NCBI GenBank assembly: GCA_009760855.2
Contig: WPIO01000062.1
Coordinates: 1-64,000, forward strand
Direction of reading: 5' to 3'
DNA from: Cristatella mucedo
Lineage: Eukaryota > Bryozoa > Phylactolaemata > Cristatellidae
DNA length: 64,000 nt
Positions within the stretch are counted from its first letter, which is position 1. Each line of letters opens with the position of its first letter. Below are positions 1-25,810 of this stretch, piece after piece. A program made the position numbers and the translations under genes. The notes under the pieces are model-generated. The model saw only the letters and a list, made by a program, of their open reading frames with translations, had not been told where the DNA came from and made no database searches.

Positions 1-481
1 ACCGTAGCGGGAGCCGCAGGGCGCGCGAAAACCTGCGAGCAGCGAGGAAATGTGCTGCGATCCCCACCGAGAGATGCTCGCATGCGGGCCGCCATCAGCC
101 GACGGCGTCGCAACAGCTGGACCACTTTGAGCGCTTCACTTGGCTCCGGTACCAGGATGTGGCAGCACGGCGAAAGGCAGGCTGCCACCAGTAGCTGCAC
201 GCAAAAGTTAGATACTTGGCACAGCCTCGGTCTCGTGACCGTCTCGACAGCACGAGCCTTGAATTGGAGTTTGGGGTGCTGCCCAGACCTGCCGCGACAA
301 AAGCCCCATGATGCAGCGGGCGAAGTCGCACGAAGACTTTGGTGCTATCTGCAAGGAGGCTGGCCAACTACCTAAGGTGCGACACACCTGTCCTCGTGTA
401 TACCACCTCTCATTGCATCGACTCCTCGGCTGACATGACCGTGCCAATCGGGACCGTTGGCTGTGCCCGAAGTGTACATTG
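1..481 (+). pseudogene. Array copy G1: decayed exon 2 of PHF21A-like PHD gene (5' end outside window)
   Basis: This stretch aligns with exon 2 of the other five copies but carries many small indels throughout, so no single frame crosses it. The PHD region can be recognised in pieces: the CAICKEAG-like core near 340 and a TCPRVYH block near 385-410. The cysteine spacing is destroyed by indels around 370-440. The codon that is TAG in the other copies reads TTG here (479-481). A shared AATAAA follows at 563-568. Because the damage is nearly all single-base indels spread evenly through coding and non-coding DNA, poor consensus quality at a contig edge is an alternative to true decay. Confidence 0.8.
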
Positions 482-3400
482 TCGGCAAATTTAGTGAACA
501 TGTGAAGGAATCATCAAGGTTGTGCCCTAGCTTTCCGCATGCCAGCCTCTCCTAGCGTTCGTAATAAATATTGAATCAAACCAAATCCCTATTGCACACT
601 TTCTTGCCTCATGCAAACTGAAACTCAAAGTTTGCAGTTATATATGTGGGTGTTGTGTGTGGGGTGTGTCGTATGGGTGTTGTTTGTGTGTGGTGCATTG
701 CCGTTGGCGGGGGTTGTGTGAGTATGTTGTTTTCTGTAATCGTATGCCAATGTCAAGAAACGTATGGCCAAATTCTACTACAGCTCTATCTCTTCGCGGC
801 GTGGGAAAATATCTCAATCGAAGCTCCGGGTAAAGCACTTATAGCTGAAAAAGCAGGGACGTGTGCCTGGCGCTGAACTATCTTTGCCATGTTGACATGG
901 CTGCTTTGCTTCTAACTCGAGGGCTGAGAGCAAGCTACTACTTACAATATGATTTCAGACAAAAACCTTCGAGCATATGCAAGCATCGCTAGGAAAGGAC
1001 GGCTGTCGGGTATCCCCTGATGGGGCAGGCGGATAGCAACTTTGTCCTATCCGCGGCAGAAAAGAAACAATCGCGTGGATCATGAATATGCTAACTATCA
1101 ATGAAACTATTCATCTATCGATTTGGTAAAATTGCTAAAATCGTCCAGAAACGTGGAAATTTAAATCACCCTAATGCGTGACCCTCAGCGGAGCAGATCA
1201 CGGGTAGGCGGCACTCATTCACGTGGTGAAATTCCAATGGCAATTCTGCTTTTCCCAAAAACAAACCTGTTGATTCTTCGGACAGCTCCGATCGAGTCCG
1301 TTCTTCTCGGTCGGTGACATCCTCGAGTCTTATTCCAGCCGCCGCACTTTCCAGGTGACCTTTCTGTCCCATCATTGCAAAGTCTCGATTTGGAATTATC
1401 ACTCCCGTCTGTGTCTTGAGACATTCGGCGGCCAAGGTGGCACAGCCCCAACGTAATCCGCCAGATTCGTTAAAAGCTAGTAATCGATGTATTTTAATAG
1501 CAATAGCAAACGTTTCATGTCGGCCCAAGAGTAAATATTCGACAGCAGAAGGTGAGATTCATAAGGCCAGCAGCATGCATAGTTTACATATCAAGGAAGC
1601 ATAGATGAAGAAACAAGACAATTTCAGTAGTTGCTCTTCAAAGTATCGTCCGTCTGGGGACTGAGGTATTGCCAGGTTGTAACGGTTCTCACTATTTACG
1701 ACTTAGCTAAAGGACAATGGCCTGTCTGCAAAGAGTATGGATGGTCACTGGACGGATCAGCTACATTGGCCGTCAGGGTAGCACCGTGTACCACTTGGGG
1801 GATTTACAAAAGCAAGCCCTGTTAGACACGTAACGCTGTAGTAATTGCAGGTAGAGGAAATGAAAGCCGACGTACTGACTTCAACGTCGCCTGTCGCTAT
1901 TTAACTTTGGATGGTTATATTTCATCCCAAACCCCATAGGACGTTCCAGCATGTACTGCATCATTCCAGTTCGCCGAAAAAGGAAGCATGGTCGCCTATG
2001 ACAGAGAAGAAGTACACGCATGATGATAATTTAAGTCAGCTTGCCGTGCGGGTTTGGTCCAGCAGTGAAGGTAATCGCCCCGACAAAACCATATGGCGAG
2101 GTCGTGTTCTCGAGCCCCGAAGGCATATGTCAGCGCCTGAACTGAGACCAGGAGCTCTCTTGGGGCGCGTTTACGAGTTAGATACATCGCACCTGTAACT
2201 TCCCTACATCGGAGGGAATAAAAGAAAGAACATGCCTTTGTGCATTGTATTTATCAAATTCAATCCCCAATACTTGCCCAGCAAGAGGCAACAAGTTCTT
2301 TAATGAGCTGACTTGAAATGCGAAAGACGATTGCCGAACTGAGCGCCCAAGACTAAAACGAACGGAAGACCCATATGTGTCCAAAGGAAACAAGGATGAT
2401 GAAAACACACCTCTCCATCACCGTCACGGTTAAGGTAACGTGTATATATAGCAGGGTTAAGTTTCGAAACAATCAAACACAAGCACAAATGTCCAGAAAT
2501 GTTGGAATCATGAAAAACAGTGTGTCAAGGCGAGAAATACTATGGTTGACAATATTTTGCCTGCGGGAAAAATGAACGGTGTCTCTCTTTATTCAGATCA
2601 TTTTAACCGGTAATATTGTCGTTTGTAAACTGCAACGTTTTTGAAACATAGCCACAAATGAGTAAACAATGACAAATGGCTGCTGCACCAGCACAAAAGG
2701 GATAAGATGGGCATTCCATATACCGCTAACGGTGAGTGTTAAGGTAACAGCTAGCGTTAGCCACACCACACACAAATTAGCCAGGATCTACGTTCTGAGG
2801 GCTGCAGTCGTCGAGGTCCTCGTGTGCTCTCCAGTTGCGAGAAATGGATAAGCATTCAGCAGCGAAAAATGAGAAAAATTACTACAGATAAACTGTTCTC
2901 AATGGCTCACATATGACGCTGAAGAATTGGAGTGTTGCGAATGGATTTGAATGGTAAAGCTTGAGGGAGGCATCATCAACTTGATGACAGCTACCGATTA
3001 AATTCAATGTGGCTATAATTGAAAACTTCTAGTTTCACCTGATGTCCGATCCTTGCATGCTGGCGATTTGGCAGATATCGGAGTATTTCCTCAGGCGTTA
3101 GCGATGTAGCACTTAATTAAGTGGGCATGTAAACACAAACGATTATCCAAAACGTGTAGTACAGGCGAAAGGGCTGAGCAAATCACTAACAGTGCTCACT
3201 TAGTTGATCATGGCCATGATGCGTATTATCGTTCTCATATTTCGGCATTTTAGCTATTAAAGAAAGTCTTGGACTGGATAAGTTTAGGCTTACAGTCGAC
3301 TACGGGCCCGTTCACTTCCAAGCACCTTCGTGGGTGCTGACTATAACTATTACTTATTGAATTGGGAAAATTATACCAGCTAACCTTTGAGATAGGGCAA

Positions 3401-3729
3401 GGGTGAATGCAAAGAAGTAGGACAAAAATTGTAGTGATTGTACAAAAGCACAGCCCCGGCGCATAGTTACCACCTGATTCGGCTATTAGCAGCAAGGCGC
3501 ATCTAGTTCATCTATAACTGGGCCAGTGTATCACGGGCCAACTGTAGTAACAAAACGGGTCCCTATGGGCGCAAAATGTGTTTATGAAAATCGGACAACC
3601 AGGAAATACTTAATATGGCGACTTCTCTGAGGTGCAGGCATCAACGTCTCGGTTTGCAGTATGGCTGCTGTGCCTACCAAAATCGTCTTCCATCTTCGCT
3701 ATTGAGCAGTCTACATACTAAATACGGAC
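482..3729 (+). other. Inter-gene part of array unit 1 (diverged)
   Basis: This lies between G1 and exon 1 of G2. It holds the G1 AATAAA (563-568), a degenerate GT-rich patch (about 643-730) and a SINE copy (about 2048-2185). The rest matches the same part of the other units but has a small insertion, deletion or substitution every few tens of bases. I see no conserved protein here, and the short open frames are not shared with the other units. Confidence 0.75.
2048..2185 (+). repeat. tRNA-derived SINE type 1, array unit 1 copy
   Basis: The copy begins near GGTTTGGTCCAG (A-box-like), has a CTCGAGCCCC B-box-like block near 2112, and ends with a CTCTTGGGGCGC tail. The same element sits at the same place in every array unit, so it was present before the array was amplified. 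Cleaner single copies lie at about 37128-37262 and 57943-58088. Confidence 0.8.
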
Positions 3730-24243: not shown

Positions 24244-24390
24244 TCGGACAATTTAGGAAACTGTGAAGGAAATCAAGTTGCCATAGCCTTTCTATGCAGC
24301 CTTCCTAAATTCTTAATAAATATTGAACAACCAATGCCTATTCGCACCTTTCTTGCTCAGCGAATTGAACTCAATTGCAGTTACATATAG

Positions 24391-24514
24391 GTGCGTGTGT
24401 GTGTGTGTGTGTGTGTGTGTGTGTGTGTGTGTGTGTGTGTGTGTGTGTGTGTGTGTGTGTGTGTGTGCGTGTGTGTGTGTGTGTGTGTGTGTGTGTGTGT
24501 GTGTGTGTGTGTGT
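24391..24514 (+). repeat. Expanded (GT)n microsatellite, terminal array unit (~124 bp)
   Basis: About 60 GT repeats with rare GC interruptions, at the position where the other units have 8 to 18 repeats. Open frames made of Cys-Val or Val-Cys repeats here are artefacts of the repeat. Confidence 0.97.
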
Positions 24515-25810
24515 TTCTTGTGTGTTCATTGTCGTTGGCGTGGGTGTGTGAGTATGTGTTTTTTAATCGATGCCATGCAAGAACTTATGCAAATTCCTAC
24601 ACTCTATGCTTCGCGTTGAAATATGCAATCGAAGCTTAGGTAAAGCTCTTATAGCTGAAAGCAGTGACTGGGCCTTGCGAGACTTTGTTTGCCATGTTGA
24701 CATGGGTTGGCTTTGCTGCTAACTCGGGTCTGATAGTAAATTCTACTACTAACAGTCTGATTTTTGTCACGGAAGCTCAGTGGCCTGGTAAGCGGCAGAG
24801 TGGTCGCAGTACAGCTGGGTTTGGTGGGAACTAGCTTTTGACCCCATGAACTCGGCTACATGTATTTAAGGTAGTGTGGACAGTGGCTGCTCTCTGGATG
24901 GGATATCATGCACAGTATTAGAGGATTGATATCTTCCTTATCGTATATCGTGCTGGTAGGTCTGCCTGCTCATACAACCGTAAAAAGGGCGTCATGAAGT
25001 TGCTAGGAATTCTTTGAGTTTGGCGAGGACTACCAACCAACAAAGTAACTACTGCATAATGGAAAATGGTTCCAAACTGCCTATATGCCTTCTTTTACAT
25101 ACAGATTCCTGATTTCATCGTTTTTTTTCACACTCTCGTTAGCCACCAGCCTTCCACCCCTATGCATACAGACCTGCCATCTTCTGGAGCGAGTAGCTAG
25201 TCACGAAGATGCAAGACGTTAAGATCCAGATATTATATTGACAGATGAGGCTGAGGACAGGAAGTCATATTTCTCATACCAGAAATACTTATAAAATCTT
25301 ATCAGAGACTATAGCATTGCCAAGCCCATTTTCGAGCTTGTCACCCATTGGATCAAGGAGTGCAACATGGCTGGCAAAGTGCGAAATTTACCTACCCGAA
25401 AAATTTTCATCAACATTTCTATACATTTTTATGTGAACACGCTTTTCTATAATAGATATGATACCCGTTACACAGCATTCTGTTAAAATAGGATAATGAT
25501 TCTCAGTAACTTCCAGAATAATCCGCTTGCGTTTAATTGCAGCCATATCTATTTTACTGCAATGTAGGCCAGGAAACGGCAGTTTGAAAACTTCTTTTTG
25601 GGAATTCTGACTGATTAAGGCAAAATAAAAGGCAGAATCCCTTGCTTGGCATGGAAAGTCCACCTTTAGAGCTGAATTCCGTAAGGGCTCTGATGTTGCG
25701 CACTGCAGACTTAGTCCGCCGAAAACTATTGATGATTACCGTTTCACTAGCGACAACTCTTAAAGAACAAAAAGCACGTTCATAAATTAATAAATTAGCT
25801 AAGGAGGAGT

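Follow-up and report, generated by a model that had tools for sequence, protein, structure and literature searches.

Organisation of the array and of its gene models

The window, i.e. the whole stretch of 64,000 nucleotides of Cristatella mucedo DNA that was analysed, contains direct repeats lying ~4740–4760 bp apart, head to tail, from 3968 to ~24775. With the poly(A) signal as anchor, unit borders fall at 5322, 10065, 14806, 19561 and 24308 and delimit four anchor-to-anchor units of ~4.75 kb, which span 5322–24307 and are flanked on both sides, within the window, by partial units. Exon 1 (MDKIELDIQKTADPTAGTSS, donor GTATGT) does not vary among the five units in which it is present and starts at 3730, 8326, 13063, 17822 and 22571; the acceptor of exon 2 in the two-exon model is TTTTCTAG. 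This exon 1/exon 2 structure is a prediction from splice-site motifs and the open frame only. The features are listed below, with events in each unit counted against the majority consensus.

1–3666, + strand: array sequence (exon 2 tail of an upstream unit, and spacer) of apparent raw-read quality, with an indel-rich error spectrum
3730–5257, + strand: gene model G1, exon 1 3730–3790, exon 2 from 4690; PHD 5114–5251 intact
8326–10000, + strand: gene model G2, exon 1 8326–8386, exon 2 from 9447; PHD 9857–9994
13063–14741, + strand: gene model G3; PHD 14598–14735 intact
17822–19496, + strand: gene model G4, exons 17822–17882 and 18943–19496, PHD 19353–19490; the sole intact two-exon model
22571–24243, + strand: gene model G5; PHD 24100–24237 intact
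5322–10064: array unit 1, 4743 bp, 24 events
10065–14805: array unit 2, 4741 bp, 19 events
14806–19560: array unit 3, 4755 bp, 7 events
19561–24307: array unit 4, 4747 bp, 38 events
24308–24775, + strand: last partial unit, with an AATAAA poly(A) signal, an expanded TG run (24391–24525) and the array end
50483–57183, + strand: full-length PHF21A-like gene, apparently complete, exons 50483–50780 and 56003–57183, phase-1 splice

The 239-aa ORF at 18777–19496 matches the Pfam PHD family PF00628 over residues 197–238 (E 6.8e-12, 45.7 bits for a cut-off of 24), and its stop codon lies one residue past the last PHD cysteine. The 46-residue PHD protein sequence is identical in the five readable units, and the nine Cys/His positions of the C4HC3 finger are common to the array PHD and the PHD of the full-length gene. 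Among PDB chains, CHD4 ranked first (6ryr, 106.5 bits), followed by PHF21A (2yql, 83.5 and 2puy, 76.9). The CHD4 score, however, is the sum over two PHDs (54.7 + 56.9), and the best match over a single stretch is PHF21A. CHD4 and AIRE share with the array the H3K4me0-type PHD class and a significant sequence match, but their single-stretch scores are below that of PHF21A. The equivalent of BHC80 M502 is also kept in the array PHD. In BHC80 (PHF21A), the LSD1-CoREST-associated reader of H3K4me0, residues E488 and D489 contact the amino group of unmodified H3K4, according to PMC3214078; their equivalents, the E and D of the HEDFC motif, are kept in all five units.

Upstream of the PHD, the array retains a PHF21A-like block, ATSPDARNKLDYLASLGLVP, which corresponds to ATSPTARRKLEFLAAVDLIP upstream of the basic motif in the neighbouring full-length gene. 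The two blocks score 91, well beyond the 47 reached by the best of 1000 shuffles, and this ties the array gene to PHF21A and not merely to PHD fingers at large; the comparison that revealed the block was one with the neighbouring gene. Other PHF21A features are missing: as judged by reading, the 204-aa G4 model (C-terminal end ...GRWLCPKCT) lacks the N-terminal coiled coil, the basic motif (KRTERKRRTTANP in the full-length gene), the AT-hook and the C-terminal coiled coil. Together, these results bear out the original prediction of a protein that ends directly after a BHC80-like PHD finger and has lost these four elements. A single-sequence structure prediction of the C-terminal part of G4 gave a mean pLDDT of 51.4 and was set aside.

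The claim of at least six head-to-tail copies encoding this protein was not confirmed. The tandem array is there, but only one of the five two-exon models, G4, is open through the PHD as assembled. The G1 frame is lost after 44 aa through small insertions and a deletion. In G2, seven substitutions clustered near the acceptor (9431–9458) lead to a stop after 24 aa, the downstream frame being open through the PHD. The G3 frame ends after 115 aa owing to a 4-bp insertion (GCAG) at 14434, and that of G5 after 147 aa, with two substitutions and a 1-bp deletion at 24037–24039. From alternative starts, shorter frames open through the PHD were found in G1 (94 aa, ATG, 4973–5257), G2 (174 aa, TTG) and G3 (185 aa, TTG, in a different frame upstream). 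The number of truly broken copies is blurred by probable residual assembly errors, which are considered below.

Scans with Rfam (gathering thresholds) and for tRNAs gave no matches, and neither of two ORFs on the minus strand of unit 3 (113 and 95 aa) had a Pfam match at E 0.1. No title among the literature matches listed on PHF21A, PHD or BHC80 mentions a PHF21A array, which does not prove that none has been described.

Divergence between units and sequence quality

Self-BLAST identities at offsets of one, two, three and four units are 98.1, 98.3, 97.8 and 96.1%. Near-identity among units extends over exons, intron and spacer alike, indicating that amplification or homogenisation was recent. 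The length of a TG run downstream of the gene varies between units (listed for four of the five) and is greatest in the last partial unit. The alignment of the four complete units contains 119 columns split 3:1 and 10 columns with no clear majority, so that a few events may be assigned to the wrong unit.

All nine interspersed-repeat pairs longer than 300 bp in the window were taken as controls. Between them they contain 521 substitutions, of which 282 are transitions, and 128 indels, of which 55 are 1 bp long; several of the pairs have an element in common and hence are not independent. A smaller control, made of three of the nine pairs, comprises 126 substitutions and 19 indels.

The 5'-most stretch differs sharply from these controls. 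Positions 1–3666 are ~86% identical to the unit over 3857 aligned columns (85% by BLAST), with 149 substitutions, 213 insertions and 90 deletions. The ratio of indels to substitutions is 303:149 compared to 128:521 in the control pairs (Fisher p 2e-57), and 245 of the 303 indels are of 1 bp, as against 55 of 128. Only 29 of the 149 substitutions are transitions (ts/tv 29/120), which is below the one in three expected of random change (p 2e-4) and far below the 282 of 521 in the controls (Fisher p 2e-14). Event rates are nearly even (0.126 in exon 2, 0.135 in its PHD part, 0.121 in the spacer) and the dense events end sharply at 3666, the single later event (3824) preceding the 161-bp deletion at 3968. 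The decreasing order of insertions, substitutions and deletions seen here, at ~14% in all, is typical of raw single-molecule long reads. An error of 10–20% is given for noisy long reads in PMC8097686. The error spectrum, the even rate and the sharp end fit unpolished long-read sequence, and positions 1–3666 are probably such sequence at an assembly edge, where the assembly ends or is thin.

A genuinely old, diverged copy in an ancient array with recent partial homogenisation would be the other way to read this stretch. It would account for the ~86% identity, and the one-base insertions, of which 84 in 172 match a neighbouring base, give no clear sign of error and are neutral as a check. This candidate was nevertheless rejected as extremely improbable on account of the indel excess, the transition deficit, the equal rates in exon and spacer and the sharp end. 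The sixth, 5'-most copy, by which the array had been extended to position 1, falls in this stretch and is readable neither as a gene nor as a diverged copy. More generally, ~85% identity made up mostly of 1-bp indels can mimic an old gene copy, and caution is needed.

The 161-bp deletion at 3968 lies in the G1 intron, ~300 bp past the noisy stretch, and could be a misjoin.

An excess of indels is also found, to a lesser degree, in units 1–3, where 26 indels accompany 24 substitutions (128 and 521 in the controls, Fisher p 1.3e-6). Leaving out two TG-run indels brings the count to 24:24 (p 5e-7 relative to the three control pairs), a figure that retains a 1-bp deletion beside one of the omitted TG-run indels. 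Passing from three to nine control pairs weakened the contrast for units 1–3 (p 1e-7 to 1.3e-6), whereas that for 1–3666 is still strong. This excess suggests that some of the frame breaks in G1–G3 are residual sequencing errors. Unit 4, with 33 substitutions and 5 indels, does not differ from the controls (p 0.40, nine pairs). It thus resembles an authentic, distinct copy, and for G5 a real break is the likelier case.

The noisy-read spectrum of 1–3666 and the clustered substitutions and indels of units 1–3 are what one could expect if the copy number itself were an artefact, a low-copy gene having been multiplied when noisy long reads were mis-assembled. We consider this improbable, because the units differ in TG-run length and by dispersed substitutions. 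Moreover, among the four full units it is unit 4 that stands furthest apart, and the last partial unit has the longest TG run, as would be expected where a real array ends. Judged from these sequence comparisons, the array is real and recent, but less clean than at first reading.

The full-length neighbour and the age of the truncated paralogue

As predicted, an apparently complete PHF21A-like gene is present on the same strand at roughly the stated ~30 kb, its first modelled exon lying ~25.7 kb and its PHD exon ~31 kb beyond the array end. By reading, the exon at 50483–50780 encodes an N-terminal coiled-coil-like region, and the exon at 56003–57183 a basic motif, an AT-hook-like motif, the PHD and a C-terminal coiled-coil-like region; we take KRTERKRRTTANP to be the basic motif and KRPRGRPP to be AT-hook-like.

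When one unit (14806–19560) was compared with 24776–64000 by low-stringency blastn, six matches were obtained: one to the PHD exon (137 bp at 72.7%), four to an interspersed repeat (three of 137–147 bp and one of 48 bp) and one of 51 bp. The unit and the full-length gene therefore resemble each other at the DNA level only over 137 bp of the PHD. On this ground, a recent origin of the array by copying of its neighbour was rejected, and a recent retrocopy is likewise not supported. A phase-1 intron common to both genes, and the residues KTAD in both modelled first exons, hint at a segmental origin, although four residues carry little weight.

The window also contains other repeated elements. The ~140-bp interspersed repeat, searched with array unit 3 only, is present at 16237–16379 (inside that unit), 37122–37262, 47807–47943 and 57943–58089 (75–82%), with a further 48-bp match at 48853–48900. 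A 725-bp repeat pair (31036–31760 and 37795–38519) is 96.6% identical without gaps; it holds what we take to be a tRNA-like B-box, GGTTCGAATCC, and is presumably SINE-like. Remains of a reverse-transcriptase gene were detected on the minus strand at 39273–39626 (RVT_1, below cut-off, E 0.0014). The adjoining stretch 38692–39039 resembles the same non-LTR element and matched no Pfam family.

The PHD of the array is identical to that of human BHC80 at 31 of 46 positions, the PHD of the neighbour at 30 of 46, and the two are identical to each other at 29 of 46. The similar identities to human indicate that the PHD of the array lineage has changed no faster than that of the full gene. Between the array and full-length PHDs, dN is 0.286 and dS 1.34 (NG86), i.e. 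a dN/dS of ~0.21, in which dS rests on 46 codons and is imprecise. At 0.2, 0.3, 0.5 and 0.67 substitutions per site, a simple uniform model of a neutral branch starting from the neighbour's PHD preserved all nine shared Cys/His positions with no stop in 29, 2, 0 and 0 runs out of 5000 respectively, the last rate being half of dS. The low dN/dS and the simulation indicate a truncated paralogue that is probably of old origin and spent a large part of its history under constraint; the amplification came later. These tests address constraint on the ancestor, and the identity of the PHDs among recent copies is uninformative on present selection.

The array could also be a real tandem repeat of a truncated PHF21A copy that was already dead, its PHD looking intact merely through recent homogenising amplification. 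Four of the five two-exon models are disrupted, and the normal substitution-to-indel ratio of unit 4 means that the frameshift of G5 may be real. We find this reading possible but rather unlikely, given the long constraint on the PHD before amplification, the 204 aa over which G4 is open and the indel excess in units 1–3, expected if some of the breaks are errors.

A candidate stand-alone reader of unmodified H3K4

The explanation that we favour, with reasonable though not high confidence, is that of an old, once-constrained truncated PHF21A paralogue that was recently amplified; against it counts that, in the assembly, every two-exon model except G4 is broken. In this reading, the paralogue retained the short block ATSPDARNKLDYLASLGLVP and an H3K4me0-type PHD finger, and was long under purifying selection. 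It was then recently amplified as a 4.75-kb unit, together with an upstream exon, an intron and a poly(A) signal of its own; unequal crossing-over is the most likely mechanism.

Truncated paralogues are known to undergo tandem amplification, and tandemly amplified young animal paralogues typically form near-identical head-to-tail units that include intron and flanks, with some copies broken. The array shares all of these traits and is probably an ordinary recent gene amplification. It differs from them in its payload, a free-standing chromatin reader domain from an old truncated paralogue.

At least one copy, G4, may make a small nuclear protein that lacks the coiled coils of its full-length relative and is predicted to bind unmodified H3K4, and further copies would add dosage or be decaying. 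The most likely product would thus be a small stand-alone reader of unmodified H3K4, encoded by one or more working copies. The support for functional, free-standing readers consists of the ancestral constraint on the PHD and the one intact two-exon model. Competition of such readers with LSD1-CoREST, and a germline- or sex-specific role, would be further putative features. A bolder version, in which copy number sets the dose of recently amplified stand-alone H3K4me0 readers that, lacking the coiled-coil regions, occupy the mark against LSD1-CoREST in trans, perhaps in the germline, appears improbable to us. If expressed, the array would offer a natural example in which a chromatin reader domain is freed from its complex and raised in dose, and it could be used to test whether the reading function of BHC80 is separable from its role in LSD1-CoREST.
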